From Shinella zoogloeoides (lineage in GTDB: Bacteria > Pseudomonadota > Alphaproteobacteria > Rhizobiales > Rhizobiaceae): DNA of 64,000 nt. Of the stretch, positions 6,411 to 24,834 are shown piece after piece; position 1 is the first letter of the stretch; every line of letters starts with the position of its first letter. The notes under the pieces are model-generated. The model had not been told where the DNA came from and did not search any database. It saw only the letters and a list, made by a program, of their open reading frames with translations. The stretch is from the NCBI RefSeq assembly GCF_022682305.1, contig NZ_CP093528.1, positions 1,749,501-1,813,500 of the forward strand, read 5' to 3'. Position numbers and translations under genes: made by a program.

Positions 6411-6416
6411 TGGCGG
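6411..6416. other. Candidate attL core (TGGCGG)
   Basis: TGGCGG here matches the CCA end of the tRNA-Ser gene (TGGCGG at 26425-26430, plus-strand reading). The match is only 6 bp, which by itself proves little. It lies 12 bp from a stranded tRNA-type terminator and directly before the first element-like sequence (the higBA operator region), which makes it the most economical left boundary I can find. Confidence 0.35.
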
Positions 6417-6427
6417 GCCGCGACCGA

Positions 6428-6530
6428 TAGTGATGATCACTACGTTTACGCTATAGCCCTCAAAATCAATATCATCTCCGCTCGGAGCGAGCCGTAAAGC
6501 GTCGCTTGACGCTATCCAGTCTTCCAAATA
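6428..6530. promoter_or_regulatory. Promoter/operator region of the first higBA pair
   Basis: Two perfect inverted repeats lie just ahead of higB: TAGTGAT-G-ATCACTA (6428-6442) and AGCGTC-GCTT-GACGCT (6498-6513). The second overlaps a TTGACG -35-like hexamer (6506-6511) with a weak TAGTGT at 17-bp spacing. Such palindromes are expected targets for a HigA repressor. Whether the downstream defence operon is read from here is an inference. Confidence 0.5.
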
Positions 6531-6539
6531 GTGTGCGGC

Positions 6540-6851
6540 ATGAAGATTCGGAACGTGGTCCATCCGGGCTTGCGCTCTCTCATCGCAGAGGACGAACCGG
6601 CCGGCCCGCGAAGCATCGACGTTTCGAGGTTGCGGCGCATCCTGTCTTTCCTTCAGGACATGGCCGGGGCATCGGAGCTTCGCTGCGTCGCCGGCTGGAC
6701 GGTTCAACCGCCGTCCGGTGCCGGACGGGGAAAATGGGAGCTACGGGCCGCACCGGTCGGCGCGCTCACGTTCAAAATCGACGCACCGGGCGGCGAGATC
6801 GCTGACCTTGACTATGAGGGAACGGCTGAAACGTGGGCGCAAGCGCAATGA
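6540..6851 (+). CDS. higB: HigB/RelE-like toxin, divergent
   Basis: A 103-aa small protein with the RelE-superfamily layout: N-terminal strand (MKIRNVVHPG), two helices (SRLRRILSFLQDM) and C-terminal strands ending LTFKIDAPGGEIADLDYEG. HigB toxins are ribosome-associated mRNA interferases. The match to HigB is modest, and the call rests largely on the overlapping HigA-type gene. Start chosen at ATG 6540; an in-frame GTG at 6531 would add three residues, and neither has a strong ribosome-binding site. The stop overlaps the higA start (ATGA). Confidence 0.65.
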   Translation: MKIRNVVHPGLRSLIAEDEPAGPRSIDVSRLRRILSFLQDMAGASELRCVAGWTVQPPSGAGRGKWELRAAPVGALTFKIDAPGGEIADLDYEGTAETWAQAQ

Positions 6852-7168
6852 CCAGCATCCGAATGAAGGCCCCCGCCCATCCCGGCGGCTTCGTGAAGAC
6901 CGAGGTGATCGAACCTCTCGGCCTGTCGGTCACGGCCGCCGCCGGGGTTCTGGGCATCACCCGTGCGGCCTTGTCAGCCCTGCTCAATGAGCGGGCCGAT
7001 CTTTCGCCGGAAATGGCGATCCGCATCGAGAAGGCGTTCGGCGTTTCGATGGAAACCCTCATGCGGATGCAGAACAGCTTCGACATCGCCGAGGCACGGA
7101 AGAAGGCGGAGGCGGTCAACGTCGCCCCCTATTCCGGCAAGCCGCCGCAGCGAAATCTCCCGTCATGA
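6848..7168 (+). CDS. higA: HigA-type antitoxin, XRE-family repressor
   Basis: A 106-aa protein with a central helix-turn-helix ([20 protein letters not shown], about residues 30-49) and the HigA hallmarks [17 protein letters not shown] before and [20 protein letters not shown] after it. HigA neutralises HigB and usually represses its own promoter. The start overlaps the higB stop by 4 bp. The helicase gene of the defence-like operon starts 64 bp downstream on the same strand with no terminator visible between them, so the two modules may share a transcript. Confidence 0.9.
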
Positions 7169-7232
7169 CCCGTTCAATCTCAGCAAACTTCGGGGCAGAG
7201 GCTCGCGCACCCAAAAGAAAGCCGTCCACCAC

Positions 7233-10200
7233 ATGAAGCTCGAAGAAATCAAGTCTGGCCTGAGTCTATCCGGGATCGAACCGTCCCAAGTCGTGACGGT
7301 CGTTGCTGTCGTGCCCCTTGGGGAAGGCTCTGTCCAGCTCATCTACCGGACGCCGGACGGCGCGATGAAGGAACGGCTTCTCAACAGGGGCGACGAGCCT
7401 TCGGTCGATGTCGCCACGGCCGAGCGTCCCTTCTCCTTCGACGGTGACGGCGCGGCTTTCCAGCTTGCTTGCGAGGCGAAGCGGATCGACCTCGCCTTCC
7501 TCTTTGATCCGATGATGGCCGTCCACAGCTCGAATGTGGAACCGCTGCCTCACCAGATCACCGCCGTCTATGAGTCGCTTCTGCCCCGGCAGCCCTTGCG
7601 GTTCGTCCTCGCGGACGATCCCGGTGCCGGCAAGACGATCATGGCGGGCCTCTATATCCGCGAACTCATCATGCGCGCGGATTCACACCGTATCCTGATC
7701 GTCGCGCCCGGTAGCCTTGTCGAGCAATGGCGAGACGAGCTTTACGAGAAATTCGGTCTGGAGTTTCACGTCTATTCGCCGCTTCTGGAGCAGACCTCGC
7801 CGAGCGGAAACCCGTTCGACGACTATCCCCGCCTTATCGTCCGGCTCGATCAGCTCTCCCGCAACGAGGAGCTTCAGGACAAGCTTTGCGCGCCGGGCTG
7901 GGATTTGGCCGTCTTCGACGAAGCGCACAAACTCTCCGCGCACTATTTCGGTTCCAAGCTGGAAAAGACGGGCCGTTTCCGCTTCGCCGAGAAGCTGGGC
8001 GCGCATGTCCGGCACCTTTTGTTGATGACGGCGACGCCGCACAACGGCAAGGAAGAGGACTACCAGCTTTTCCTTTCATTGCTCGATTCCGACCGCTTCT
8101 ACGGCAAGTTCCGCGACGGCGTTCACAAGGTCGACGCCTCCGACCTCATGCGCCGCATGGTCAAGGAGGAACTGGTCAAGTTCGACGGCACGCCGCTCTT
8201 CCCAGAGCGCAAGGCGTACACCGTCAACTACGAACTCTCGCAGATCGAAGCGGCCTTGTATGAGGCCGTGACCAACTATGTGCAGACCGAAATGGGCAAG
8301 GCTGACCAACTCGAAGGCGCGCGCAAGGGATCGGTCGGCTTTGCCCTTACCGCGCTGCAACGGCGTCTCGCTTCAAGTCCCGAAGCGATCTTCCAATCGC
8401 TGAAGCGCCGCCGCGAGCGGCTTGAGAACCGGCTGCGCGACGAAAAGCTCGGCATCAAGGGGCGGCACGCCCTCGCCGAGACCTATGCCGGCGCGCCGGA
8501 GGACGATGACGACCTGAGCGCGGAGGAGCAGGAGACCCTTGAGGAAAACCTGATCGACGACGCCACGGCGGCCAAGACCGTTGTCGAGCTTGAGGCCGAG
8601 ATCGTCATCCTGAAGGGGCTGGAGGAGCAGGCCAAGGCCGTCGTCGCCTCCGGGCAGGATCGCAAATGGGATGAGTTGTCAAGAATCCTTCAGAATCACC
8701 CTGAAACCCGCGACGCCGCCGGTCGGCAGCGCAAGATCATCATCTTCTCCGAACACCGCGACACGCTGAATTACCTTCAGGCGCGGATTGCCGGCGTGCT
8801 TGGCAATCCCGACGCCATCGTGGCCATCCACGGCGGCACCCATCGGGACGAGCGCCGTCGCCTTCAGGCGCTCTTTCGCTCCGATCCCGATGTCCGGGTG
8901 CTGGTGGCGACCGACGCCGCAGGCGAAGGCGTCAATCTTCAGAACGCGAACCTCATGGTCAACTATGACCTGCCGTGGAACCCGAACCGGCTGGAACAGC
9001 GGTTTGGCCGTATCCACCGCATCGGGCAGACCGAGGTTTGCCACCTGTGGAATCTGGTCGCCAAGGAGACCCGCGAAGGCGATGTCTATCACCGCCTGCT
9101 TCTGAAGCTGGAGGTCGAGAGCCAAGCCCTGCACGGGCGCGTATTCGACATTCTTGGCGAGGTCTTCGAGGAGACCAGCCTAAAGGATTTGCTGGTCGAG
9201 GCGATCCGCTACGGCGACCGGCCCGAAGTCCGCGCCCGCCTGACGCAGAAGATCGACAAGGCGCTCGACCACGATCACCTAAAATCCCTCTTGAATCGCA
9301 ACGCGCTCGCCCAGGAGACGATGAGCGCGGATCGACTGTTCGCCGTGAAGGAGGAAATGGAGAAGGCGGAGGCCCGACGGCTTCAGCCCTACTTCGTCCG
9401 TGCCTTCTTCTCCAAGGCCCTCGACGCGCTCGGCGGCACAGCGCATCCGCGCGAGGCCGGCCGTTATGAGATCAGCCATGTTCCTTCGGTGATCCGCGAG
9501 CGTGACCGCCGCCTGACCGGCCGGAACCGCCGCGACCATGAGCCGGTCTTGCGGCGCTACAGCCGCATTTGCTTTGAACGTCAGGCCATCCAACCGCTCG
9601 ACAAGGCGGGACTGGAGCGCGCCGTTCTCATGCACCCCGGCCATCCGCTCATGCTCGCCATGTCGGATATGATCCTGGAGCAGCACACCAACCTTCTCCG
9701 GCAGGGTTCGATCCTTGTTGACCCGTCCGATGAAGGACTCGACCCGGCGCTGCTGATCCTGCTGACGCATGAGATCAAGTCCGGCGACAACACCGTGCTA
9801 TCCAAGCGCCTGCAATTCGTGCGGGTTGCCCCGGATGGGCAGGCGAGCTTCGCCGGATGGGCGCCTCATCTCGACCTTGAGCCTTTGCCGGAGGCCGAGC
9901 GCCCCTTGCTCAAGGACGTGCTCGACGCGCCTTGGCTGTCCTCCGGTCAGGAGGCGCGTGCCTTGTCCCTTGCCGCGACGACGCTGGTGCCGGAGCACTA
10001 TGGCGAGGTCGCGCAGCGGCGCATCGACCATGTGGAAAAGACCCTGAACGCCGTCCATGAGCGGCTGAGCAAGGAAATCGCCTTCTGGCAGGATCGTTGG
10101 ATGAAACTGAAGGACGACGCCGAAGTCGGAAAGGACGTGCGGCTCAACCTTCAGAATGTCGAGCGCACGCTTGGCGACCTTCAGGGCCGTTTGGACAATC

Positions 10201-10745
10201 GGAAGAAAGAGCTTCAGGCCATGCGCCATGTCGTGAACGGCACGCCGGTCGTGCTGGGCGCGGCGCTGATCGTGCCGGCAGGCTTGATGAACAAGCTGCG
10301 CGGCGACGAGCCGGCCGACCCGGTGGCGGCGACCTTCGCGGCCGACGCGGCGGCCCGCTCGCGCATCGAGCATCTTGCCATGTCGGCCGTCCGGCAGGCC
10401 GAGGAAGCGCGCGGTTGCCGCGTCGTCGATGTTTCCGCCGCAAAATGCGGCTGGGATTTGACTTCATACCCGCCAGCCGTGGACGGCAGGCAGCCCGATC
10501 CCAAGCACATAGAGGTGAAGGGCCGGGTGAAGGGCGCGAGCACCATCACGATCACCCGCAACGAAATGCTCTACGCCTTCAATCAGGGTGACAAGTTCGT
10601 GTTGGCGGTCGCCATCGTCGGCGAGGACGATGCCATCGACGGCCCGCACTATATTCCCAGCCCGTTCGACCGGGAACCCGGCTGGGGCGTCGCGTCCATC
10701 AATTTCAGTTTGGGCGATCTGCTCGCCAAAGCAGAGGCTCGATGA
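7233..10745 (+). CDS. SNF2-type DEAH helicase with C-terminal DUF3883 (nuclease-like) domain
   Basis: A 1170-aa superfamily 2 ATPase. Seen: P-loop [11 protein letters not shown] (about 129-139), DEAH at 229-232, [15 protein letters not shown] (motif III), [15 protein letters not shown] (motif V) and [11 protein letters not shown] (motif VI, about 589-599). A long helical middle follows. The C-terminal part has CGWDLTS and HIEVKGR, a D-x(18)-E-x-K spacing (D1075, E1094, K1096) followed by ITRNE, as in the DUF3883/NO VEIN C-terminal domain, which is thought to have a restriction-endonuclease-like fold. The start at 7233 (MKLEEIKSG) is the first ATG giving the conserved N-terminus. The stop overlaps the next gene by 4 bp. 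It is the likely DNA-tracking component of the operon; cleavage by its tail is untested. Confidence 0.88.
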
Positions 10746-12073
10746 CCGCGCTACGTCTCGACACGCTATCGCTGACGAATTTCCGCTGCTTCGCCCATTG
10801 CGAGGTCGCGTTCCACCCCAACCTGACTGTTCTGGTCGCGGAGAACGGCAGCGGTAAAACTGCCGTGCTCGACGCCGCCGGAGCTGCGCTGTCGGTATTC
10901 GTCAACGCGATCTATTCGCCGGAAAAGCTGCGGCGAATCGAGCGGAGCGACGTGCGCCTGATCCCCGGTCAGGAGCGCAGGATGTCCCCATGCCTTCCGA
11001 CCGAATACGAAGCGCAGGCAACCGTTCAGGGTACGGCCGTGACATGGAAGAGCGCCGTTAGAACCTACGGTGACAAAGTGCGTCCTGGCTTCCGGCACCT
11101 TGGCCCAATGAAAGCGGCTGCGCAGCCATTCCTATCCGATACGGCTGTTCTTCCGCTCATTGCCTATTACGGAACGGGTCGCCTCTGGAACGAGCAACGG
11201 CAGACCGAATATCGCCGTTCCTCCGTCACCAATGTCGGAGAGCGCGTCGCTGGCTATGCCGATTGCCTCACGTCGTCTTCGTCCTTCAAGGGCATTTCGG
11301 CATGGTTCGAGCACCGTTTCAGGCAGACGGCATCGCCGTCATTCCGGGAGAGTCTGCAAGCCAATCTCGCGATGATCGAAGGCGTGAAGACTGCCACAGA
11401 CACGGTTCTTCAGCCGACCGGCTGGTCAAGTCTCCGCTGGGATGACGAGCTTCATACGCTGACCGCCAAGCACGAGACGCGGGGCGAGCTGCCGCTGTCC
11501 ATGCTGAGCGACGGCGTGCGCACCATGCTTGCGCTTGTCGCCGATGTTGCGCGTCGCTGCGCCAGCCTCAATCCGCAACTGAGTGATCGGGCCGCCATCA
11601 AGACCCCCGGCGTTCTCATCGTCGATGAAGTGGACATGCACCTGCATCCCCGCTGGCAGCAGCAGGTGCTCGGCTTGCTGCAAAGCGCGTTCCCGGCCCT
11701 ACAGATCATCGTCAGCACGCACAGCCCGCATGTCCTTTCGACCGTCGATAAGTCGTCGATCCGCGTCTTCCATATCGACGGCGACGATACGCGCATCGAA
11801 ACCCCCCTGATCCAGACACGGGGCGTTGAGAGCGCCGATGTGCTGGCCTCGGTCATGGGCGTGGACCCGGTCCCGCAGACGGAAGAGTCGAGCGACTTGA
11901 ACGCCTACCGCGCCCTCATTGAGGACGGCAAGGCAGACACGCCGGAAGCAACGTCTCTGCGGGAACGCCTGGTCGCGCATTTTGGGGCGACGCATCCGTT
12001 GATATTGGAGTCCGACCGGCTCCTCCGCTTCCAGCGGTTCCGGCTTGCCAAGAACCGGACGGACGGAGCCTGA
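10742..12073 (+). CDS. Septu PtuA-like AAA/ABC-type ATPase
   Basis: A 443-aa RecF/SMC-like ATPase with its parts in order: N-terminal [14 protein letters not shown], Walker [12 protein letters not shown] (33-43), signature [14 protein letters not shown], Walker [20 protein letters not shown] and H-loop [12 protein letters not shown]. The insert between Walker A and the signature is short, as in PtuA and the retron Ec78 ATPase rather than in Rad50. Its partner HNH gene begins 1 bp after its stop, the PtuA-PtuB order. In Septu the ATPase forms a complex with the HNH nuclease and restrains or directs it. The start overlaps the helicase stop (ATGA), so it is translationally coupled to that gene. 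Confidence 0.85.
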
Positions 12074-12074
12074 C

Positions 12075-12716
12075 ATGAGGAAACTTGATCGCGCGATCTG
12101 CCCGGCACCGGCCTGCCTTGGCAGCTACACCCACGGCGTTCACAAATGGGACAACGTGTCATCCGCCGAAAAGGGAGAAATCAGAACGCAGCTTGAAGCT
12201 ATGCAAGGCCGTCGTTGCGCATATTGCGAGGGTAGCATCGACAGCCTCGGCCAACATATCGAGCACTTCCGTCGCAAGAGTCTCCATCCAGCCCTGACGT
12301 TCGATTGGAACAATCTCTTCTGGTCCTGCGACCAGACGGACTCCTGCGGCCATTTCAAGGATCGCGGCGCTGGCCCCTATAATGTGGTGGACCTCATCGA
12401 CCCTTGCCTTGATGACCCCGATGCCTTCTTCGTCTTCCGGGCCGACGGCACGATCAGCGTGCGGAACGGCTTGTCGGCGCAGGACGAACATCGGGCGCGA
12501 GAGACGTTGCGCGTCTTTTCATTGAATCCCCAATGGGGCCGCTTGAGGAATATGCGCCAAGCCGCCGTCTCTGGCTATGTCGATAGCGCCAATGACGCTT
12601 TCGATGCTGGCCTGACGCCTGCTGATATTCGCGCCTATTTCGCGCAGGAGCTTCAGGCTGCCCATGACCTGCCATTTTACACGGCCATCCGGCATGTGCT
12701 GACGGAAAGACAATAA
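12075..12716 (+). CDS. PtuB-like HNH endonuclease
   Basis: A 213-aa protein of the TIGR02646 type. The zinc/HNH region runs over about residues 47-96: RCAYCEG (Cys48, Cys51), [11 protein letters not shown] (His61, His64), [12 protein letters not shown] (Asn79/80, Cys85) and CGHFKD (Cys91, His93). The EH...N...H arrangement is that of a beta-beta-alpha-metal nuclease. In Septu and in retron Ec78 this subunit cuts nucleic acid, with tRNA cleavage reported for the retron version. It starts 1 bp after the ATPase stop, and the methylase starts 2 bp after its own stop. Its position inside a helicase-methylase operon is unusual. Confidence 0.85.
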
Positions 12717-12718
12717 GA

Positions 12719-15619
12719 ATGACCGTAACCGTGAAACCCCCGAAGAAGCTGATCGAAGTCGCGCTGCCGTTGGATGCGATCAACGAGTCTGCCGCACGCG
12801 AGAAGTCGATCCGGCACGGGCATCCGAGTACCCTGCATCTGTGGTGGGCGCGGCGGCCGCTTGCCGCGGCGCGCGCCGTGATCTTCGCGCAGATGGTCAA
12901 CGATCCGTCGTGGAAATGGGAGCTTGAGCACCCGGGCGAGATTCCGCCGAACAACATTAAGGCGAGCTGGGCCGCGAGCCGGAATCGGCTCTTCGCCATC
13001 ATCAAGGATTTGGTGAAGTGGGAGAACACCACCAACGAGGCCGTGCTGCAAAAGGCGCGGGCGGAGATTCGCAAGTCCTGGCGCGAGACCTGCGAACTCA
13101 ACAAGGCCCATCCGCAAGCGGCGGAGCTGTTTGACCCCGAAAAGCTGCCAGCCTTCCACGATCCGTTCGCAGGTGGCGGGGCGCTGCCGCTTGAGGCGCA
13201 GCGCCTTGGGCTTGAATCCTATGCTTCCGACCTCAATCCGGTCGCCGTCCTCATCAATAAGGCGATGATCGAGATTCCCCCGAAATTCGCCGGACGGCCG
13301 CCGGTGAACCCGGAAGCACGCGCCAGCCGTGATGCTTGGAGCAAGCAATGGGAGGGCGCACAGGGTCTCGCGGAGGACGTGCGCTATTACGGTCAGTGGA
13401 TGCGCGAGCAAGCACAGAAGCACATCGGCCATCTCTATCCGCCGGTCGAGATCACATCGGATATGGCAAAGGAGCGACCCGACCTGAAGCCGCTGATTGG
13501 CCAGAAACTTACCGTCATTGCGTGGATATGGGCGCGAACGGTCAAGAGTCCCAATCCCGCCTTCCGGCATGTGGATGTACCACTTGCTTCGACTTTCGTT
13601 CTTTCGAGCAAAGAAGGAAAACAATCCTACGTTCAACCGATCATTGACGGTGACAAATACCATTTTGCCGTAAAGGTCGGTAGGCCGCCGGCCGGCGCAA
13701 AGGAAGGCACCACCGCTGGAAAACGAGCAGCATTTCGCTGCCTGATGTCCGGTGTCCCTGTGGACTACAACCACATCCGCTCAGAAGGTAAGGCGGGTCG
13801 CATGGGTACGCGCTTGATGGCTATCGTGGCCGAAGGCGCACGAGGCCGCGTCTATCTCTCCCCATCGCCTCAGCACGAAATCGCGGCCGCAAAAGCTCAG
13901 CCGGAATGGAGGCCCGATATGCCTCTTCCCGACAACCCCCGCGATTTCAAGACGCCGAATTATGGCCTTAGTACCTTCGGCGAACTTTTCACATCACGCC
14001 AGCTTGTCGCGCTGACGACCTTCGGTGATCTCGTTGTCGCCAGCAGAAACAAGATCATAGAGGATGCACATGCTGCAGGATTGAATGACGACGGGGTAGG
14101 ACTCGATGTCGGGGGGGCAGGAGCGCGTGCTTACGCGGAGTCCGTAGCTGTCTATTTGGCTTTCTCGATTGATAAATCTGCTGACTATTGGTCAACGATC
14201 TGCACATGGCATTCTAGCAAGGAGCTGATCCGCAACACCTTTGGCAGACAAGCTATCCCTATAACGTGGGATTATGTCGAAACGAACGTCTTCTCAGACT
14301 CAACGGGAAACGTATCGAGCGGCATTGAATGGGCGCAAAAAGCAATAGTAAATTTCCCTGCAAAACCAGATGGTCATGCGACACAGGCAGATGCCCAACG
14401 TCAGAGCATTAGTCTGAGAAAGATTATATCCACCGATCCGCCATACTACGACAACATTGGCTATGCCGATCTTTCGGATTTCTTCTATATTTGGCTTCGT
14501 CGGTCGTTGCGGCAGGTTTTCCCCGAACTTTTTGCCACGCTTGCGGTCCCCAAGGCCGAAGAGCTTGTAGCTACTCCCTACCGGCATGGCAGCAAAGAGC
14601 GGGCTGAGACGTTTTTCCTCAACGGCATGACGCAAGCGATGCAGCAGCTTTGCGAGCAGGCGCATCCTTCATCACCTGTCACCATCTATTATGCTTTCAA
14701 ACAATCTGAGACGGAAACCGCCGAAGGCACTTCCAGCACCGGATGGGAAACCTTCTTGGATGCCGTAATCCGGTCCGGCTTTGCCCTCACCGGCACATGG
14801 CCTATGCGAACAGAGCTTGAGAATCGGATGATTGGATCGGGAACAAATGCCCTTGCATCCAGCATTGTCTTGGTTTGTCGTGCGCGCCCGGCAGCAGCGG
14901 AAACCGTTTCCCGCCGAGCTTTCCTGCGCGAACTGAATCAGGTGCTGCCAGAGGCGCTTGACGAGATGACGCGCGGCTCCGGCGACGACCGTTCACCCGT
15001 CGCGCCCGTTGATCTTTCACAGGCCATCATCGGCCCCGGCATGGCGGTATTCTCGAAATACGCCGCCGTGCTGGAGGCGGACGGCACGCCAATGACGGTG
15101 CAAACCGCGTTGCGGCTTATCAACCGCTTCCTCGCCGAGGATGATTTCGATCACGACTCCCAATTCTGCCTGCACTGGTTTGAGCAGTACGGCTGGAAGG
15201 AAGGCCGCTTCGGCGAGGCCGACACCCTTGCCCGCGCCAAGGGGACGAGCGTTGACGGTGTGAAGCAGTCGGGCGTTCTCTTTGCTGCCGGCGGCGTTGT
15301 CCGGCTGCTGAAATGGGCGGAATACCCGACCGACTGGAATCCGCTCGGCGACGAGCGCCTGCCGGTATGGGAGGCCCTGCATCACCTGATCCGCATCTTC
15401 AAAGCCGAAGGTGAGAGCGGCGCGGGCAAGGTGCTTGCGGCCGTCGCGGCTAAAGCCGAGGCGACGCGGCAGCTTTCCTATCGCCTCTATACGCTTTGCG
15501 AGCGGGCGGGCTGGGCGGAGGATGCCCGCGCCTATAACGAGATCATAACGAGCTGGAGCGCCATCGAGTCCGCCGCCGCAGCGGCACCGAAGGCGCATCA
15601 AGGCGAGCTGTTTGGCTGA
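12719..15619 (+). CDS. DUF1156 adenine-type DNA methyltransferase with mosaic centre
   Basis: A 966-aa protein. The N-terminal DUF1156 region reads [20 protein letters not shown]. The SAM-binding motif I is [17 protein letters not shown] (from residue 148) with the acidic [13 protein letters not shown] after it, and the catalytic motif IV is [13 protein letters not shown] (from residue 573), the DPPY class of amino-methyltransferases. The segment from about 13540 to 14900, between and around these motifs, is near 45-50% GC by direct count of several lines, while the two ends are well above 60%, so the target-recognition region looks exchanged. It likely marks self DNA for the operon. The next gene starts 14 bp after the stop. 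Confidence 0.9.
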
Positions 15620-15633
15620 AGGGGGAGCCAGCG

Positions 15634-18474
15634 ATGAAACCTTGGAGAGAAGTGGCTGTACCCCATCAGGACGTGCTTGAAGGCACGTTCCAGCAATCGG
15701 AGTTTGCGGCCGACATCACAGCGGTCAACACCGGCAAGGCCAGCCGCGAATATCAGGATGCCGGCGCGTTCTTCGACCGTACCTTCATCACGGAAGGAAT
15801 GGCGCTCCTGCTGACGCAGGTTGCGCAGCGCCTCGCTGGTCGGGGCGGTGAGCCGGTCGTGCAGCTTCAGACCGCCTTCGGTGGCGGCAAGACGCATACC
15901 ATGCTCGCCGTTTATCACCTTGCCACCCGCAAATGCGCCCTGTCCGACCTCGCCGGCATCCCCGCGCTTGTCGATCGGGCGGGCTTGATGGACGTGCCGC
16001 AGGCCCGCGTCGCGGTGCTGGACGGCACCGCGCACGCGCCGGGCCAGCCGTGGAAGCGGGGGAGCCAGACGGTCAAGACCCTTTGGGGCGAGATCGCATG
16101 GCAGTTCGGCGGTGCTGACGCCTTTGCGCTCGTCGCCGAGGCGGATGCGACCGGCACATCCCCCGGAAAGGACGTGCTGCGCGAGCTTCTGGAGCGCCAT
16201 GCGCCTTGCGTCGTGCTGATCGACGAGCTGGTCGCCTATATACGGCAATTCCCGGAGTCGCAGGCTATCAGCGGCGGCAGCTACGATTCCAACCTGTCCT
16301 TCGTGCAGGCCCTCACCGAAGCCGTGAAGCTGGTGCCGCGCGCCATCGTGCTCGCGTCCTTGCCGGAGTCCGATCTTGAGGCGGGCAGTCAGCGCGGCGT
16401 CACGGCGTTGCGCGCCCTCGAAAAGACCTTCGGGCGCGTGCAGGCGCTTTGGAAGCCGGTGGCGACCGAGGAAGCCTTCGAGATCGTACGCCGCCGGCTG
16501 TTCGAGCCAGTGCGCGATGAGAAGGCCAGAGAGGCCGTATGCCGTGCCTTCGCCGACGCCTATATCGCCGAGGGCGTGAAGCTGCCGGCCGACACGCAGG
16601 AACGGCGCTACTACGAGCGGCTGTTGCACGCCTATCCGATCCACCCGGAGGTGTTCGACCGTCTCTATGAGGACTGGACGACCATCGACGGGTTTCAGCG
16701 CACGCGCGGCGTCCTGAAACTCATGGCGAAGGTCATCTACCGGCTATGGAAGGACGACAACAAAGACCTGCTCATCATGCCCGGCAGCCTGCCGCTCCAT
16801 GACGGAAGCAGCCGCAACGAGCTGACCTACTACCTGCCCGCAGGCTGGGATGCTGTGATCGAGCGCGACATCGACGGCGACCGCGCAGAGACGACCGCTT
16901 TGGAGAACAAGGAGCCGCGCTTCGGTCAGTTGGGCGCGGCCCGTCGTATTGCTCGCACGGTCTTCCTCGGCAGCGCCCCGTCTTCGGTCGCGTCCAAGGT
17001 GGCTACGCGCGGCCTCGACCGCGCGCATATTGTTCTCGGATGCCTCCAGCCCGGACAGGCAGCATCCGTCTATGCTGATGCGCTCGGCCGGCTCGCCGAC
17101 AGGCTGCACTACCTCAATTCTTCCGGTGACAAGAGTCAGGACGCAACCCGCTTCTGGTTCGACACCCGCGCCAATCTGCGGCGGGAGATGGAGGATCGGA
17201 AGCGCCGGTTTGATGACCGGACGGAAGTACGCGGCAAGATTGCCGAGGCGTTGAAGAAGACGGTCGGCAATGCCACGTCCTTCGACGGCGTACATATCTT
17301 CACGCCGCATGGCGATGTACCCGACGATACCGCCCTGCGCTTGCTCGTTCTGCCGCCGGAGACTTGGTATGCCCGCGAGGAAAATCGACTCGCCTTTGAA
17401 GCGGTGCTGGAGATCATTGGCAAGAATGGCTCGAAGCCGCGCTATCGCAGCAACCGACTGCTCTTCCTTGCTCCCGATCACGGCGCGCTTTCCCGTCTCA
17501 ACGACGCAACGCGCGTCGCGCTCGCATGGGGTTCGATTGTCGAGGACGTGAAGGAAGGTCGCCTGAACATCGACCTGTTGCAGAAAAATCAGGCCGAGAA
17601 GGAGCTGAAGAGCGCCGAGGACGCGCTGCCGCGCGTGGTCCGCGAGTGCTACAAATGGCTGCTCTGCCCGATGCAGGACGCGCCGGCCGATCCGAAGCCC
17701 GGCATCGAGGCGTTCGCCCTGAACACGACCGGCGGCTCTATCGGCGGCGAGATCGAGCGGGTTTGCACCGACAACGAGCTGGTCATCACCACCTGGTCGC
17801 CAATCCACCTCCGGGCCAAGCTCAAGGAGCTTTATTGGAAGGGCGGACAGAACGCTGCGAGCGCAGCGGGCTTTTTCGAAGACACCCTGCGCTATCTTTA
17901 CCTGCCGCGCCTCAAAACGCAGGATGTTCTGGCGCAGGCGATCCGTGCTGGCGCTGCCAGCAAGGACTTTTTCGGCACAGCCTACGGCGAGGTCGATGGC
18001 AAGTTCGAGGGCTTCTCCTTTGGTGGCGGCAATGTCGTCTTCGACGACACCTTGCTTCTGATCGAGCCTCAATCAGCTCAAGCCTATGAGGATGCAAACC
18101 GGTCAGCACCGTCTCCCGCTGCTCAGGCTGCCGCCACGACCCCGACCGCGAGCGGCGTAGCCGAGGGGCCGAGTGTCTATGTTCCCAATGGCGAGGGCAT
18201 GTCGCCGGGGCCAGTGACGACCGCGCCTACACCGGCCGCTGCGAAGCCGAAAACCTTCTACGGTTCGGCCGAGGTTCCGCCCGCTACCGCAAAGATGCGT
18301 CTTGTGCAGATTGCCGAGGAAATCGTGTCAGTGTTGACATCCGACCCGAACGCAACCGTCCGCCTTGTGGTGGAAATCTCGGCCGAGTTTCCCGACGGGG
18401 CCGGCGATGGCGTGAGGCGCGCGGTTTCGGAGAACGCCCGCAGCCTTGGCCTGAAATCGGCCGATTGGGAATGA
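15634..18474 (+). CDS. DUF499 family ATPase
   Basis: A 946-aa P-loop ATPase. Walker A is [12 protein letters not shown] (80-91, G83-T87), and the Walker B-like region is [13 protein letters not shown] with D197/E198. The large central part has the DUF499 features [14 protein letters not shown] and [14 protein letters not shown]. Near residue 820 a linker rich in Ala, Pro and Thr leads to a short C-terminal domain. DUF499 proteins travel with DUF1156 methylases and large helicases in prokaryotic defence clusters; their biochemical job is not known to me. A ribosome-binding site (GGGGGAG) precedes the ATG. It is the last gene of the operon; the convergent hairpins at 18535-18600 lie just after it. 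Confidence 0.88.
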
Positions 18475-18534
18475 TGGCTACGGGCTATTGTGTGCCCACT
18501 TCCAATAGTGGCTACGGCTACCGATAGAGGATTT

Positions 18535-18600
18535 GCGCGGCGTTGCCGCGCGATGGCGGGCGGCGCTGCGATATGTGGGGTCTCCGCGCCGCCCGCCATC
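18535..18600. terminator. Convergent hairpin pair between the defence operon and traD
   Basis: Two perfect inverted repeats: GCGCGGC-GTT-GCCGCGC (18535-18551) and a 14-bp stem GATGGCGGGCGGCG / CGCCGCCCGCCATC (18552-18565 and 18587-18600) with a 21-nt loop. They lie between the stops of two convergent operons. There is no T-tract, so termination may not be intrinsic; a transfer-related site is the alternative. Confidence 0.5.
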
Positions 18601-18602
18601 GG

Positions 18603-18869
18603 TCACGCCCGATCCGGCTGCGGCTGCACTCTGTCGTTCGGGTTTGCCGGACGCTCCATCTCGAAGGCCATCTTTCCGAGTTTCGTCCATGTACCGCGCG
18701 CACGTTCGCCGTCCTCGCTGTTGAGCTTTTTCGCCATCCAGATCATCGCGCCGTAGATCATGGCGCGGTCGTCGCTGGTCAGGTCCACGATACCCGCTTT
18801 AACGACGAGGCCGCCGAGTTCGATCAGGTGCCGCGTGCGCTTCCGGCGCTCGATCTGCCAGCTTCGCAT
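18603..18869 (-). CDS. traD: Conjugal transfer protein TraD (small, Ti-type)
   Basis: An 88-aa protein with the family core RKRTRHLIELGGLVVKAGI and DDRAMIYGAMIWMAKKL. Small TraC and TraD of Ti-type systems act at oriT with the TraA relaxase; this is not the VirD4-type coupling protein of the same name. Start chosen at 18869 because the ATG is 1 bp after the traC stop (TGACATG), so it is coupled to traC; a longer frame upstream overlaps traC and is basic and atypical. Confidence 0.8.
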   Translation of the reverse strand: MRSWQIERRKRTRHLIELGGLVVKAGIVDLTSDDRAMIYGAMIWMAKKLNSEDGERARGTWTKLGKMAFEMERPANPNDRVQPQPDRA

Positions 18870-18870
18870 G

Positions 18871-19197
18871 TCATGCCGCGCCCGTTGCGCCTGATGCCGG
18901 TTGCGCGCCGCCCGATTGCGCTTGAGCGCCGCCAGTGTCGCGGTCAGGCGCTGATGCAGTTCGCCGCGATTTGCTGCGAAAGAACGCCGCGCCACGCTTG
19001 GCCCATGTCTCCCGCTTTCCGGTATCGGTGGTTTCCACCAGCGCGACCAACGCCCCGGCCAGTTCGTCGGCGGTGAGGCTGTCCGCTCCGGTGGCGATCA
19101 CCAATTCGCCAAGCTGCTCCACCTTGCGGGCTTTCAGTTCCCGCGCCTTGTCTTCCAGCGCCTTCAGCTCCGCGTCATAGTCCCGTAGTTTGCGCAT
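18871..19197 (-). CDS. traC: Conjugal transfer protein TraC
   Basis: A 108-aa protein with an N-terminal coiled-coil-like segment (YDAELKALEDKARELKARK), a central helical core (LGELVIATGADSLTADELAG) and a Gly/Ala/Gln-rich tail. It matches the TraC accessory protein of Ti-type relaxosomes. It is transcribed away from traA, with the oriT-like site in the shared intergenic region, the same layout as on Agrobacterium and Rhizobium plasmids. It is followed immediately by traD. Confidence 0.82.
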   Translation of the reverse strand: MRKLRDYDAELKALEDKARELKARKVEQLGELVIATGADSLTADELAGALVALVETTDTGKRETWAKRGAAFFRSKSRRTASAPDRDTGGAQAQSGGAQPASGATGAA

Positions 19198-19321
19198 GAT
19201 CGTATCCTTTCCCGGTCGCAAGTGGTTGATGCGGTAAGGATAGTTGCGCGGACGACAGAACGCAGTATTGTTGCCGGGACGGTCTGGCACGGCCCGGTCC
19301 CGCCCGAGATTTTTTCGAGGG

Positions 19322-19349
19322 AGGGCGCGCTTATACGTCGTTCCGACGT
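19322..19349. other. Candidate origin of transfer (oriT, RSF1010/Ti type)
   Basis: AGGGCGCGCTTA followed by TACGTCG-TTC-CGACGT lies in the traC-traA intergenic region. Read on the other strand the core is TAAGCGCGCCCT, one base from the RSF1010 nick region TAAGTGCGCCCT as I recall it, and GGGCGC near TTATACGTC recalls the Ti oriT. The 6-bp perfect inverted repeat beside it fits a MobA/MobL-type relaxase site. The identification is by motif and position, not by alignment. Confidence 0.65.
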
Positions 19350-19378
19350 GCGCTTGGCCGTGCCAATTCTTGATCGCG

Positions 19379-22348
19379 ATGGCGATCTATCATCTTCACG
19401 TCAAGGTCATTGGCCGCAAGGCTGGGTCGAGCGCGGTGGCATCCGCCGCCTATCGCTCGGCCTCGCGGATGCGCGACGAGCGCATCAACCGTGTGCAGGA
19501 CTTCTCCAACAAGCGCGGCGTTGTCCATTCCGAAGTGCTGTTGCCGGAGAACGCGCCGGAGCAATGGTCCGACCGCGAACGGCTCTGGAACGATGTCGAG
19601 GCGTTCGAGGTGCGCAAGGACGCGCAGCTTGCCCGCGAGGTGGAGTTCGCCATTCCGCGCGAGATGACGCAGGCGCAGGGCATCGAGCTTGCCCGCGACT
19701 TCGCGCAGGCCGAATTTGTCGATCAGGGCATGATCGCCGATCTGAATGTGCATTGGGACATCGGCGAGGACGGGATGCCGAAGCCTCATGCCCATGTCAT
19801 GCTCACCATGCGCAGCGTGGACGAGAACGGTTTCGGGCAGAAGGTCCGCGACTGGAATCGGACAGAGATGGTCGAACGCTGGCGCGAGCGTTGGGCCGAG
19901 CATGTCAACGAGCGGCTTTCCGAACTCGACATAGACGCCCGCATCGACCATCGCAGCCTTGAGGCGCAGGGCATCGGGCTTGAGCCGCAAAGCCAGATCG
20001 GAGCACCGGCGCAGCGCATCGAGGGCAAAGGGATCGAGGCGGCAGATCGCGCCGACATGCACTGCGAGATTGCGCGGAACAATGGCGACAGGATCATCGC
20101 CGATCCTTCCATCGCGCTGGACGCGATCACGCACCAGCAATCGACCTTCACGCGCCGGGATATGGCGATGTTCGCGCATCGGCACAGCGACGGGATCGAC
20201 CAGTTCAACGAGGTCATGGGCGCGATGCGCGGTTCGCCCGATCTGGTCGAACTCGGGCAGGACGGACGCGGCGAAGATCGCTTCACGACCCGCGACATGA
20301 TCGAGGCCGAACAGCGGTTGCACCGCGCGGCGGAATTGATGGCCGAGAAGGAATTGCACGAGGTCAGCGACAGGGATAGAGAGGCAGCACTTGCACGAGC
20401 GGAACAGCGCGGCCTTGTCCTGTCCTGCGAACAGGCCGACGCGCTGGCGCACGTCACGGACGGTCGCGACCTTGGCATTGTCGTCGGCTATGCCGGAACG
20501 GGAAAGAGCGCCATGCTCGGCGTTGCGCGAGAGGCATGGGAGGCAGCGGGCTATGAGGTTCGCGGCGTTGCCCTGTCCGGCATCGCGGCGGAAAATCTGG
20601 AAGGCGGATCGGGCATCGCATCCCGAACCATAGCCAGTATGGAACATGGCTGGGAGAACGGCCGTGATATGCTGACTTCCCGCGATGTACTTGTCATAGA
20701 CGAGGCGGGCATGGTCGGCACGCGGCAGTTGGAGCGCGTCCTGTCCCACGCGGCGGAAGCTGGCGCAAAGGTTGTGCTGGTCGGCGATCCGCAGCAGTTG
20801 CAATCCATCGAGGCGGGCGCAGCGTTCCGTTCGATCCATGACCGTCACGGCGGCGTGGAAATCCACGAAGTGCGCCGCCAGCGCGAAGACTGGCTGCGGG
20901 ACGCCACCCGCGATCTGGCGACCGGCAGGACCGGCGATGCGATCAGCGCCTATGACCGTTACGACATGGTGCATGAGGCGCTGACCCGCGAGCAGGCGCG
21001 GGACGATCTGATAGACCGCTGGGACCGCGATCGGCAGGCATCCCCCGACAGCAGCCGCATCATCCTCACCCACACCAATGCCGAGGTGCGGGAACTCAAC
21101 GAAGCCGCCCGCGACCGGATGCGAGAAGCTGGCGATCTTGGCGAGGACGTGCGCGTCACGGTCGAGCGCGGGGAACGAAACTTCGCCGCCGGGGATCGCG
21201 TCATGTTCCTACAAAACGAGCGCGGCCTTGGCGTAAAGAACGGCACGCTCGGCACCGTCGAGCAGGTCAGCGCGCAGTCCATGAATGTGCAGACAGATGA
21301 TGGCCGGTCTATCGCGTTCGACCTGAAAGACTATGACCGCATCGACCACGGCTATGCGGCGACCATCCACAAGGCACAGGGCATGACGGTGGACCGGACG
21401 CATGTGCTGGCGACACCCGGCATGGATGCCCACGGCAGCTATGTCGCCCTGTCGCGGCATCGTGACGGCATGGACCTGCATTATGGCCGCGACGACTTTG
21501 CCAGCCAGGACAAGCTCATCAACACCCTGTCGCGCGACCGCGCCAAGGACATGGCGACTGACTATCAGCCCGCGCAGAGCTACGCCGAACGGCGCGGCAT
21601 TACATTGCCTGAGCGCGATGTCTCGGTTGAACAGGCGCGCGCGCCGAGCGCCGCCATCGACCGGATCGGCGACATCATCTTCGGCGTGCGCGAACTCCGC
21701 GACGGCGCAGAAGGGCCGGAAAGAGAGACGACCGGCAGGGGGATAAAGCAGGAGATCGAGGCGGTGGCGCGGGACGCCGGAATAGATTCGGAGGATGCCT
21801 TGCGCCACGCCCGCAGGATGGCGCTCATTCGCCATGCCCATGCCGTTGGCCAGGTCTTCAACGCCGAGGATGCCGGGAGCAAGGCAAGCCCCGCAAAATG
21901 GGAAGAACTGGTCGATTCCCGCAGGACATTCGATGCGGTGCGCCCCTATGGCTGGCAGGACGCGGAAGCGGCCTATGCCAAGGATGAGAGCCTTGCCCAT
22001 GAGGCGGGATCGGGCAAGGTCAATCGCGCCATCCGCGCCCTGCAACTCGAAACCGAGATTCGGACCAGCCCAGAACGCCGTGCGGATCGTTTCGTGGAAC
22101 GCTTTCAGGAACTCAAACAGTCCGGCGAGCGCCGATATGCGGCGGGCGACTATTCCGGCTACAGGTCGGCGCGCGCGGAGATGGGCAACATGGCGATGAG
22201 CCTCGAACGCGATCCGCAGATGGAATCCCTACTCGAAGGCCGAAAGAAGCAACTCGGCATCAGCATGGATTTCGACTCAGGGATGAGGCTCAGCCGACAA
22301 CTCGCCCTCAGTCACGGTCTCGGCAGGGGGCGGGGCATCGGATTGTAG
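19379..22348 (+). CDS. traA: Ti-type conjugative relaxase-helicase TraA
   Basis: A 989-aa protein. The N-terminal MobA/MobL relaxase domain starts MAIYHLHVKVIGRKAGSSAV; the metal site is PHAHVMLT with His137 and His139. A TraI/RecD-like helicase follows: Walker A GYAGTGKSAML (373-377), VLVIDEAGMVG (about 441), VLVGDPQQLQSIEAGAAF and the C-terminal YAATIHKAQGMTVDR. It nicks oriT and unwinds the transferred strand. It is somewhat shorter than plasmid TraA (about 1100 aa). Start at 19379 is the ATG that gives the conserved N-terminus; frames further upstream run through the oriT region. Confidence 0.93.
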   Translation: MAIYHLHVKVIGRKAGSSAVASAAYRSASRMRDERINRVQDFSNKRGVVHSEVLLPENAPEQWSDRERLWNDVEAFEVRKDAQLAREVEFAIPREMTQAQGIELARDFAQAEFVDQGMIADLNVHWDIGEDGMPKPHAHVMLTMRSVDENGFGQKVRDWNRTEMVERWRERWAEHVNERLSELDIDARIDHRSLEAQGIGLEPQSQIGAPAQRIEGKGIEAADRADMHCEIARNNGDRIIADPSIALDAITHQQSTFTRRDMAMFAHRHSDGIDQFNEVMGAMRGSPDLVELGQDGRGEDRFTTRDMIEAEQRLHRAAELMAEKELHEVSDRDREAALARAEQRGLVLSCEQADALAHVTDGRDLGIVVGYAGTGKSAMLGVAREAWEAAGYEVRGVALSGIAAENLEGGSGIASRTIASMEHGWENGRDMLTSRDVLVIDEAGMVGTRQLERVLSHAAEAGAKVVLVGDPQQLQSIEAGAAFRSIHDRHGGVEIHEVRRQREDWLRDATRDLATGRTGDAISAYDRYDMVHEALTREQARDDLIDRWDRDRQASPDSSRIILTHTNAEVRELNEAARDRMREAGDLGEDVRVTVERGERNFAAGDRVMFLQNERGLGVKNGTLGTVEQVSAQSMNVQTDDGRSIAFDLKDYDRIDHGYAATIHKAQGMTVDRTHVLATPGMDAHGSYVALSRHRDGMDLHYGRDDFASQDKLINTLSRDRAKDMATDYQPAQSYAERRGITLPERDVSVEQARAPSAAIDRIGDIIFGVRELRDGAEGPERETTGRGIKQEIEAVARDAGIDSEDALRHARRMALIRHAHAVGQVFNAEDAGSKASPAKWEELVDSRRTFDAVRPYGWQDAEAAYAKDESLAHEAGSGKVNRAIRALQLETEIRTSPERRADRFVERFQELKQSGERRYAAGDYSGYRSARAEMGNMAMSLERDPQMESLLEGRKKQLGISMDFDSGMRLSRQLALSHGLGRGRGIGL

Positions 22349-22428
22349 AGTGCGCCAAGAATAGTGCCACTCGACACTGAGGGCGCGATTGCCAGTCTTG
22401 TCCCCTTCGCGCGCAGCGCCAACGTATT

Positions 22429-23298
22429 TCAGCGCGAGGTCGCAGGCTTCTCTTTTTCCCGATACCGCGCAGCGCGCTTACCATTCATATCAAGGTAACG
22501 AATCTCGAAGGCACGCGATTCATGCACGACCTGACGCCAACTGCCGCATCCATATTTTGCAGGTAGCTGTTCTGGGAACCGCTCGGCAATCCACTTGCCA
22601 GCCTCCGTGATAGATGCCCACCCATCGACAGCCAATTCCTTAGCAGCTTCACGCAAGGCGCGCACGATGCCTGCGGCAAACCAATCCACCTTCCCGTCCG
22701 GAGCAATGCCATTGATGACCAAATCCCGAAACTCAGTCGAACGGACAAAGGCATCGGCCAGACGCCGACTTTGTTCCATATGTTCTGCCCACCCGCGAAG
22801 CTGTTCAAAGTGTTGGTCGATGCGGCTGTAGGCAGCGAGCAACGCCCCGTGAGCGCCACGGCATCCCTCCAAGCTCCAGAGGTCGTGCTCTTCGATGAAG
22901 TGGTGAACCAAGCTGTTCCGCAGCAGCACCAATTCTCTAAGTTCAGTTTCTGTCCGGGCGAAATCTATGTCGGATAGGCCCAACTGCATCCGAAAACTGA
23001 ACGAAGCCGTATCCTCAGATGAATCGATCGTGTCCTTGGGTGCGGTCTGATCGCCGTTGACGACAACATACGATCCGAGGAGATCGCCGATCAGTGTGCC
23101 GAGTGTTTTGCGCGCGGTCTCCGTTACGCGCGCCGCTCGAATCGCCTCCAGCGCGTGAGGCGGTCCCGAGATTTCGTGATGTGCCACGATTGCCTTGATA
23201 AGGCGTTCGTACTGTTGCAGTCGCAGCAAGCATCGACCCAGCAATCTCTGTACTTCACGCTGAATCGTTTGCAGCGCATCGTCCGATAATGTTGTCAT
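22429..23298 (-). CDS. OST-HTH/LOTUS-domain protein with HEPN-like N-terminal region
   Basis: A 289-aa protein. The C-terminal region (about 215-280) reads AVDGWASITEAGKWIAERF, then YGCGSWRQVVHESRAFEI, a LOTUS/OST-HTH RNA-binding winged helix. The helical N-terminal part contains LVLLRNSLVHHFIEEHDL, where R127-N128-x3-H132 fits the R-x4-6-H signature of HEPN ribonucleases; this second assignment is mine and only motif-based. GC is about 50% in sampled lines, lower than traA and the recombinase, so it looks like recently acquired cargo. It stands alone, convergent with traA. Start at 23298 (MTTLSDDAL) is preferred over an upstream in-frame ATG that adds a basic tail. Confidence 0.7.
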   Translation of the reverse strand: MTTLSDDALQTIQREVQRLLGRCLLRLQQYERLIKAIVAHHEISGPPHALEAIRAARVTETARKTLGTLIGDLLGSYVVVNGDQTAPKDTIDSSEDTASFSFRMQLGLSDIDFARTETELRELVLLRNSLVHHFIEEHDLWSLEGCRGAHGALLAAYSRIDQHFEQLRGWAEHMEQSRRLADAFVRSTEFRDLVINGIAPDGKVDWFAAGIVRALREAAKELAVDGWASITEAGKWIAERFPEQLPAKYGCGSWRQVVHESRAFEIRYLDMNGKRAARYREKEKPATSR

Positions 23299-23619
23299 CG
23301 CGCCGCTCGCCCTCTGCTTTACGCGCCTCACTCATCCATATACAGCGCCAGTATCTGCTGGGCGCAAAGCTGCAAAGACCGCGTAGGTGCGAACTCGGCA
23401 TCAGTCTCGAATCAGGCCGTAGTCTTGGCCGCAGACTCTCCGTCACACGCGGCATTGACCTGGGCAGAGGCCGAGGTTTCAGCCTGTATGGTTTTCCTTT
23501 TTACCGCCGTTTCTACGCTACAGCACTACGAACGGTAAATATCTGTTGCGCAATGACAATTCGTTGCTCTGTCTGGTCTCTGCAATCGTCAAAAACAGCC
23601 AGCAGGAGGCAGCGCAATC
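23299..23619. promoter_or_regulatory. Divergent intergenic region between LOTUS gene and alpA
   Basis: 321 bp without a convincing gene. It must hold the promoters of both flanking genes. I see an inverted repeat TTACCG / CGGTAA (23501-23506 and 23533-23538) and a good ribosome-binding site (AGGAGG) just before alpA. No other clear signal was found. Confidence 0.4.
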
Positions 23620-23847
23620 ATGCGTCAACCAGACCGTATCATCCGCTTTAACACCGTCCGCGCTCGCACGGGTCTGTCGCGGTCCACCATCTATCGCAAG
23701 ATCGCCGAAGGCACGTTCCCGGCCCAACTGAAGATCAGCACCAACGGCGCTGGATGGCGAGAATCCGACATCAACCGCTGGATTGCCGATCCCGCCGGGT
23801 GGCGGCAACGCTCGCGTAACGAGTTCGACTTCCTCGATGACTATTGA
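23620..23847 (+). CDS. AlpA family transcriptional regulator / excisionase-like protein
   Basis: A 75-aa MerR-like winged-helix protein: IIRFNTVRARTGLSRSTIYRK is the DNA-binding helix pair and GWRESDINRWI the family's C-terminal motif. AlpA proteins activate integrase or excision genes in prophages and integrative elements, and in rhizobial elements they are usually close to the integrase. An AGGAGG site lies 10 bp before the ATG. The next gene overlaps its end by 11 bp. Confidence 0.9.
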   Translation: MRQPDRIIRFNTVRARTGLSRSTIYRKIAEGTFPAQLKISTNGAGWRESDINRWIADPAGWRQRSRNEFDFLDDY

Positions 23848-24094
23848 CCGCAGGGACGACGACAAGCCGGAGACAACCCGGCACGCCAAACGACCGCCCA
23901 CGGCGTCGGAGCAGCTTGAGGAATTGCTGGGTTATCCGTGGCCATTCCCTGGCAGGCCGCCCAAGCACGACCTCAGCACATGGACCGTCACCGACGACTG
24001 GCCCGATCCCGTTCCGGTCACGGAAGCTGAAATCGAGGTGTTCGAGCGATGGTTCGGCGACCTGTTCGATGAATTGTTTGGCTCCGGCTCCTGA
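23837..24094 (+). CDS. Small hypothetical protein of the element, overlapping alpA
   Basis: An 85-aa acidic protein starting MTIDRRDDDKPETTRHAKR, with a proline-rich middle (LLGYPWPFPGRPPKHDL) and an acidic C-terminal helix (FERWFGDLFDELFGSGS). It overlaps the alpA 3' end by 11 bp, implying coupled translation. I do not recognise a family. Its place beside an AlpA regulator suggests a role in element maintenance, but that is only context. Confidence 0.6.
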   Translation: MTIDRRDDDKPETTRHAKRPPTASEQLEELLGYPWPFPGRPPKHDLSTWTVTDDWPDPVPVTEAEIEVFERWFGDLFDELFGSGS

Positions 24095-24157
24095 GCCATT
24101 TCCCCATTGCAATATGGGTTATAGGGTGGTACATATGCCCAATATCGGAGTAAACTT
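24095..24157. promoter_or_regulatory. Promoter/operator region of the second higBA pair
   Basis: The 63-bp gap is AT-richer than its surroundings and contains the inverted repeat CCCAT-TGCAAT-ATGGG (24103-24118) and a second related half-site (TATGCCCAATAT) nearer the gene. This suits autoregulation by the HigA-type antitoxin. A CGGAG ribosome-binding site precedes the GTG start. Confidence 0.4.
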
Positions 24158-24454
24158 GTGATCGTAGGCTTTCGGGACGGCTGGCTTCGGGCTTTCTTTG
24201 TGGATGATGTTCGTTCCCGCAACATCCCATCCGATCTTGAAGCCCGCTTGTTCCGCAAGCTCCAGATGATTGACGACGCCGTGACCGATCAGGACTTGCG
24301 CGTGCCGCCTAGCAATCACTTCGAGAAGCTGCGCGGCAATCTCGCAGGTTTCCATTCGATCCGCGTCAACCAGCAATGGCGGTTGATCTTCCGCTGGGAT
24401 GGTGAACGCGGCGAGGCGGACGGGATTTATCTGGACGATCACAGCTACCGATGA
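24158..24454 (+). CDS. higB: HigB/RelE family toxin
   Basis: A 98-aa canonical HigB with the family strings FFVDDVRSRNIPSDLEARLF, LRVPPSNHFEKLRGNLAG and HSIRVNQQWRLIFRW. HigB cuts ribosome-bound mRNA. The start is GTG, downstream of a CGGAG site. The partner antitoxin follows 13 bp later. Close to the recombinase, it could act as an addiction module stabilising the integrated element. Confidence 0.92.
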   Translation: MIVGFRDGWLRAFFVDDVRSRNIPSDLEARLFRKLQMIDDAVTDQDLRVPPSNHFEKLRGNLAGFHSIRVNQQWRLIFRWDGERGEADGIYLDDHSYR

Positions 24455-24467
24455 AAGCGAGGCAACC

Positions 24468-24776: not shown

Positions 24777-24834
24777 GCGCGGCCAGCGGTCCACCAGTTT
24801 GGGCCGAGTCAAGGTTTGAGAAGGAGACATTGCC

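Follow-up and report, generated by a model that had tools for sequence, protein, structure and literature searches.

Whether a defence system found inside the operon of another works with its host as one machine or travels in it as cargo is the question raised by a stretch of 64,000 nucleotides of the Shinella zoogloeoides genome (contig NZ_CP093528.1, positions 1,749,501 to 1,813,500; the window, below). Five genes on its plus strand, at 7233-18474 and in the order HmaA-PtuA-PtuB-HmaB-HmaC, place the ATPase-HNH pair of Septu (PtuA-PtuB) within the defence system Hma, in the gap between HmaA and HmaB (the A-B gap). A preliminary description of the window suggested that the five genes form one composite machine. 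The comparisons reported here favour another reading, which we consider probable: a complete Hma operon, DUF499-centred, Type-1 BREX-related and restriction-modification-like, carries PtuA-PtuB as exchangeable A-B cargo, and all of it is cargo of a mobilisable element integrated at a tRNA-Ser gene, with PtuA-PtuB as a separate layer of defence.

The embedding of Septu in Hma is already published. Hma was named as a three-gene operon that is often found with Septu type I and often elsewhere too (Payne 2021, PMC8565338), and 'Septu in Hma systems' is given as an example of an embedded defence system in PMC12255303 (2025), which cites Payne 2021 and a 2024 preprint. The locus is a well-resolved example, not a new machine; what is added here is the gap-specific cargo, an all-embedded PtuA clade, a mosaic of PtuB and HmaB, and a tRNA-Ser element with an empty site.

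The operon and its mobile element

The reading frames of all five genes are unbroken, and every coordinate and spacing in the preliminary description proved exact: a 4-bp overlap at HmaA/PtuA is followed along the operon by gaps of 1, 2 and 14 bp. Its recognition of helicase, methylase and DUF499 protein as Hma, and of ATPase and HNH protein as Septu, was borne out by PADLOC profiles, which name all five proteins with near full-length matches (Table 1). The DISARM and retron profiles that it also proposed to search gave scores below their cut-offs, both for DrmD (383.5 bits against 610, the best PADLOC match of the helicase being HmaA) and for the retron Ec78 PtuA equivalog (291 against 500 bits). 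A Pfam search matched the other four operon proteins and gave no match for PtuB. The mechanical open reading frames (ORFs) of HmaA and PtuB start upstream, at 6963 and 12045 respectively, the ATG of HmaA being at 7233. Motifs were located in HmaA (GAGKT 131, DEAH 229, D1075 and E1094-V-K1096), PtuA (GSGKT 36 and a 10-residue motif at 291), PtuB (HIEHF 61, NN 79), HmaB (DPFAGGG 148, DPPY 573) and HmaC (FGGGKT 82); the functional meaning given to them here is presumed. The same five-gene order is present on a Rhizobium rhizogenes plasmid and on five alphaproteobacterial contigs (L025, L026, L034, L036, L040), so the arrangement is not a matter of chance. The nuclease-type motif of HmaA (D1075/E1094-V-K1096) is intact in 70 of 70 evaluable loci among 71 (L041 was not evaluable), with or without PtuA, and the idea that PtuB replaces an HmaA nuclease that has been lost is thereby rejected.

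The operon lies in an integrated element that is missing from a congener (L135), where the sequences that correspond to the window's flanks (to position 6386 on the left, from 26425 on the right) are 27 bp apart; about 20 kb have therefore been inserted at the 3' end of the tRNA-Ser gene. The ends of the element are good to about 25 bp, and no exact direct repeat of at least 10 bp was found between the intervals 6300-6520 and 26350-26560. In another genus of the same family (L136), the element backbone matches the window from 18532, just past hmaC, to 26511, and is followed by about 4 kb of other cargo and then by a 50-bp match to the left end (window 6411-6460); where the window has Hma, this cargo (L136 8817-12891) holds PDC-M57B and a GmrSD-type gene. 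The element thus looks like a carrier of defence cargo. In a member of the same genus (L140) the backbone is broken up and flanked on the left, where its end was not located, by other genes. The Rhizobium rhizogenes plasmid pC6.5e has HigA and the five genes with traA on the other strand.

Table 1. Features of the Hma-Septu operon and of the surrounding element, in window coordinates
Feature	Coordinates	Strand	Basis
HmaA: SNF2 helicase, C-terminal NOV_C domain, PD-(D/E)XK-like motif	7233..10745	+	PDLC00659, 2090 bits
PtuA: ABC/SMC-type ATPase, 443 aa	10742..12073	+	PDLC00310, 606 bits
PtuB: HNH nuclease	12075..12716	+	PDLC00358, 343 bits; TIGR02646, 154 bits (cut-off 52)
HmaB: DUF1156 methyltransferase, DPPY at 573	12719..15619	+	PDLC00660, 1788 bits
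HmaC: DUF499 AAA+ ATPase	15634..18474	+	PDLC00662, 1491 bits over residues 1-946
Small ORF	6540..6851	+	no Pfam/NCBIfam match; no tblastn match in fetched loci
HigA-family helix-turn-helix protein	6848..7168	+	TIGR02607, 91.5 bits (cut-off 47.7)
Integrated mobile element, approximate ends	6411..26427		empty site in congener L135
TraA-type relaxase-helicase	19244..22348	+	MobA_MobL, 247 bits; PRK13889, 1751 bits
Large serine recombinase	24835..26457	+	Resolvase, Recombinase and Zn_ribbon_recom domains
tRNA-Ser(TGA), integration site	26425..26514	-	ARAGORN, Rfam

The HigA-family protein is a candidate regulator of the operon; its gene also lies directly upstream of hmaA in L024 (without PtuAB), L025, L036 and L123, and the small ORF before it is presumably HigB-like. 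A promoter scan gave no sites and was uninformative. Also noted were a LOTUS/OST-HTH-domain protein in the element backbone (22429-23331, minus strand) and, just outside the element, the alphaproteobacterial small RNA ar35 (27296-27441, plus strand).

Cargo of the two gaps

Cargo was surveyed in the best 80 of 576 confirmed HmaB loci, ranked by HmaB likeness and not a random set, and in 20 regions from a sample of 398 genomes of the phylum. The A-B gap was readable in 72 loci and the gap between HmaB and HmaC (the B-C gap) in 85; these counts exclude the window and L123, five loci set aside from the start (L001, L002, L006, L007, L012) and L020, whose gap came out negative. A PtuA gene was found in 20 of the 72 A-B gaps, a 43-residue trace of one in L052, and neither in 51. 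The pair thus recurs in homologous loci, and most Hma operons of the survey are without it. PtuB was recognised beside PtuA in 18 of the 20 loci, the exceptions (L027, L102) both having a short PtuA; in L066, PtuA and PtuB precede HmaB with HmaA off the contig.

Cargo families are named from a scan of one member per BLAST cluster, many singletons being unscanned, and profiles of Hma-embedded candidates (HEC-01, 02, 05, 08 and 09) match cargo of the surveyed gaps. The remaining A-B cargo comprises HEC-09 (NYN) in 7 loci, HEC-08 (DUF3644) in 5, Schlafen in 2, a GmrSD cluster in 1, an AbiL/RloB-type pair in two loci of one cluster (L077, L079), and singletons. The B-C gap holds, among others, the HEC-02 ATPase in 9 loci (its partner clustered in 8), Schlafen in 5, HEC-01 in 3 and a GmrSD cluster in 2, with a further GmrSD in L099. 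Among 68 loci, 27 have only the A-B gap filled, 5 only the B-C gap, 19 both and 17 neither. The cargo is gap-specific: PtuA is present in 20 A-B gaps versus none of the 85 B-C gaps, and HEC-02 in no A-B gap versus 9 B-C gaps (Fisher 1e-7, not corrected for kinship). Full-text literature searches for this gap specificity found nothing, and the pattern may be in the Payne 2024 preprint. A side observation in the B-C gap is a large protein of one cluster in L043 (4795-7575) and L065 (927 and 951 aa), the L043 copy having SMC/AAA-type matches and an N-terminus that may resemble a PHP domain.

The nature of the other cargo bears on a possible, if less than likely, alternative that overlaps with the cargo reading: PtuAB may be a back-up trap that responds when Hma is being overcome, the signal being phage inhibitors, or nicks and fragments that HmaA has made. 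The logic would be that of a guard, as in PARIS, with a functional link that passes through the phage and not through contact. Other gap cargo is likewise of ATPase-nuclease or abortive type (HEC-01, HEC-02, AbiL/RloB, Schlafen), and HEPN is present in some members of the HmaC family. A survey that describes Hma as Type-1 BREX-related and DUF499-centred proposes such back-up effectors, HNH plus ABC-ATPase dyads among them (PMC12839542). No trigger is visible in the sequence, however, and Septu EcB88 is reported to protect without an Hma partner.

HmaC of the window is without the N-terminal HEPN extension, which in extended relatives comprises about 165 extra residues, with HEPN_Swt1 in both of the two scanned. 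Of the 71 loci, 68 were scored: PtuA is present in 2 of 13 with an HmaC of HEPN length and in 21 of the remaining 55. The idea that HEPN-fused HmaC and PtuAB exclude each other was dropped, since HEPN changes only twice on the tree.

A bolder idea, to which we give little credence, is that the gaps are addressed docks, the A-B gap taking PtuAB, HEC-08 and HEC-09 and the B-C gap HEC-02, HEC-01 and mostly Schlafen, such that an effector made beside HmaA would be physically or kinetically licensed by it. If so, Hma would serve as a chassis for effectors that are interchangeable and coded by position, and the PtuA lineage of the window would now depend on Hma.

Linkage and inheritance of the pair

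The preliminary description also took the tight coupling of a complete Septu pair within the Hma operon as a sign of one machine. The tight coupling is real, but not confined to this pair. With gene starts chosen by rule and not from translation evidence, the HmaA/PtuA overlap is exactly 4 bp in 14 of 19 scored loci (the others have two values of -10, and +32, +46 and +2523), and 9 of 27 loci in which the first cargo gene is unrelated have the same 4-bp overlap with HmaA (L011, L014, L017, L035, L056, L082, L084, L097, L101). Coupled translation is therefore a feature that PtuA shares with other cargo; the overlap is a property of the gap and not of the pair, which removes a tempting argument for one machine.

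A quickly built HmaA tree covers 71 loci, among them the window and L123: 23 have PtuA (counting the window, L123 and the L052 remnant), 26 have other cargo and 22 are empty, and as many as 15 changes are needed to explain where PtuA is present. Near-sisters on this tree carry different cargo (HEC-08 in L056, PtuAB in L059), and the A-B gap is empty in other alphaproteobacteria (L024 Microvirga, L042 Tabrizicola, L055 Hyphomicrobium), while all 7 rows of the window's own HmaA clade keep PtuA. The PtuA tree holds 46 rows, 23 embedded and 23 from elsewhere, the two groups having been gathered differently; nine standalone rows are long-branched, and L124 is labelled 'alone' despite an Hma locus about 3 kb away on its plasmid. 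One clade of 22 rows (support 95/89) joins 19 embedded with 3 standalone PtuA, and two further embedded pairs lie elsewhere on the tree, so embedding arose more than once.

PtuA is mostly found away from Hma. Of 50 PtuA rows in the phylum sample (two being pieces of one gene), only two (G000, G395) adjoin HmaB, and Hma was absent from the stretches fetched around a chosen 20 of the 48 others, some of these stretches running to the edge of a contig. Among 385 genomes sampled from the class, HmaB (E<=1e-100) occurs in 13 genomes, 11 of them without PtuA at its threshold (E<=1e-40); PtuA occurs in 5, lying beside HmaB in the window's own genome and in G483 (87%), the remaining three (33-37%) being in genomes without an HmaB match. 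Among plasmid records, 16 have PtuA (E<=1e-20), of which 3 were examined as PtuA matches and the Rhizobium plasmid by way of its HmaB, and 62 have HmaB, of which the Rhizobium plasmid alone was examined; 5 pattern matches to PtuA on viral contigs yielded none confirmed.

Distances between the proteins (L102 left out; L066 without HmaA) correlate at 0.94 for HmaA-HmaC and at 0.59 for HmaA-PtuA (Spearman, n=21), and at 0.93 and 0.42 (n=15, p 0.015) when alphaproteobacterial near-copies are collapsed. The co-inheritance of HmaA and PtuA is real but partial, and does not approach that of the Hma genes among themselves.

The operon is also a mosaic. Identity at fourfold sites between the window and its three closest operons (L123, L025, L036) is 68-69% for HmaA and 62-71% for HmaC, and falls to 39-46% for PtuB and 24-31% for the variable middle of HmaB (about residues 291-640); the difference between HmaA and PtuB is significant (Fisher 3e-6 to 9e-5), and for residues 1-350 of PtuA a difference from HmaA is found in L123 alone (p 0.014). 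Recombination seems to have replaced PtuB and the middle of HmaB, which is probably the target-recognition part, while the frame genes stayed. PtuB can be replaced outside Hma operons as well: of two standalone pairs examined for it, L120/L121 shows the replacement (PtuB 33%, PtuA 67%) and L114/L116 does not (PtuB 95%, PtuA 85%).

Several results weigh against the pair being exchangeable cargo of a separate layer. The presence of PtuA is somewhat clustered on the HmaA tree, with 15 changes versus a shuffled mean of 19.8 and a value as low in only 6 of 500 shuffles. On the PtuA tree, embedding needs 6 changes versus 15.5 when shuffled (0/500), and the window's clade of 10 rows (90/82; 9 of them 100/99) is entirely embedded. 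Within the main PtuA clade the HmaA-PtuA correlation is still 0.54 (n=11, p 0.001; HmaA-HmaC 0.84), and plain co-transfer does not explain the gap specificity. The wholly embedded clade, the positive HmaA-PtuA correlation and the gap specificity, together with the tight junctions on both sides of the pair and its retention throughout the window's HmaA clade, are what speaks for a composite machine in which the Hma proteins would detect foreign DNA, follow it and gate PtuA-PtuB directly. We nevertheless regard this as unlikely, given how often Hma occurs without PtuA, including in the empty-gap alphaproteobacteria, and PtuA without Hma, the presence of the overlap with unrelated cargo, and how close sisters differ in theirs; in its obligate form, the proposal is not supported, 51 A-B gaps having neither gene nor trace. 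Nor is it credible, in view of the confinement of PtuA to the A-B gap and the clustering of embedded PtuA, that the pair merely landed in a defence operon as a chance neighbour, although cargo turnover is frequent.

Two further loci were noted. On a Rhodococcus plasmid (L124), HmaC is annotated with a Swt1-family HEPN, and a PtuA-like ATPase lies about 3 kb downstream, outside the operon, with no recognised PtuB. Genome G000 has a second, apparently decayed Hma locus (C1:4284651-4286390; L002, L016), in which HmaC has about 168 extra N-terminal residues (HEPN length, domain unscanned), the HmaB match is without its first 379 residues and the stretch contains no HmaA match.

Proposed mechanism and relation to known systems

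The closest solved chain to PtuA is 8ee4 'PtuA' (280 bits), of similar length, whereas PtuB scores 129 bits with 9n69_F, 109 with the retron Ec78 PtuB 9vh1_F and 44 with 8ee7_C; we take 8ee4 and 8ee7 to be Septu. PtuB belongs to the retron HNH subfamily TIGR02646 and falls just under the cut-off of the equivalog NF041761 (148.4 against 150 bits). In spite of this membership, the pair is most improbably part of a type I-A retron: there is no Rfam retron RNA match in window positions 1-30000, the sole RVT_1 match in the genome is about 1.55 Mb away, and PtuA is 443 aa long and scores below the retron cut-off.

PtuB is an HNH protein, as first described, and its target may be tRNA rather than DNA. 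H64 and N80 of PtuB are 16 residues apart, like H75 and N91 of Septu EcB88 (matched by spacing and not by alignment), both of which are reported to be needed. Depletion or cleavage of tRNA-Tyr is reported for retron-Eco7 and Septu EcB88. Because the PtuB of the window is nearest to the retron type, we lean towards tRNA. The case for tRNA cleavage comes from kinship only, and reports that the target of retron-Eco4 is probably not tRNA and that Septu of E. coli ATCC 25922 acts on DNA weigh on the other side.

With PtuA-PtuB as a separate layer carried by Hma, the locus may work as follows, each biochemical step being predicted from sequence. HmaB would mark self DNA, by amino-methylation to judge from its DPPY motif (Payne 2021 wrote m5C for Hma methylation); HmaC would load or scan; and HmaA would translocate and cut unmarked DNA with its PD-(D/E)XK-like end. 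PtuA-PtuB would form a second, separately triggered layer, in which the ATPase complex holds the HNH nuclease and then releases it as infection proceeds, and the released PtuB would cut tRNA or DNA and stop growth. The two layers would be expressed from one operon with coupled translation and would spread together by horizontal transfer; direct physical contact between them may exist, but this reading does not need it.

The locus is a clean, intact case of nested defence systems, carried by a mobile unit for which an empty site is known, and the dependence of the embedded pair can be tested in it directly. The census adds a specific, checkable pattern of which cargo occupies which gap, and this is the part worth following.

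Compared with Hma, or Type-1 BREX-related systems, the window has all three proteins in one operon in the order A-B-C, with a helicase that, by motif reading, has the C-terminal NOV_C domain and PD-(D/E)XK-like motif; it differs in an HmaC without the HEPN fusion of some family members and in the extra pair in the A-B gap. With Septu type I it shares the two-gene ATPase-HNH unit, a PtuA with Walker motifs adjacent to PtuB, but this PtuB belongs to the retron HNH subfamily and appears to resemble that of 8ee7_C only remotely. It is akin to the PtuB of the retron I-A effectors (Ec78/Eco7 PtuAB), whereas the PtuA of retrons is longer than that of the window by about 100 residues. With the Hma-embedded candidates, some with reported defence (HEC-06 and others, PMC12988326; HEC-04, PMC12111858; see also PMC10855318), the window has in common the idea of defence genes between Hma genes, its own cargo being the already named Septu pair.

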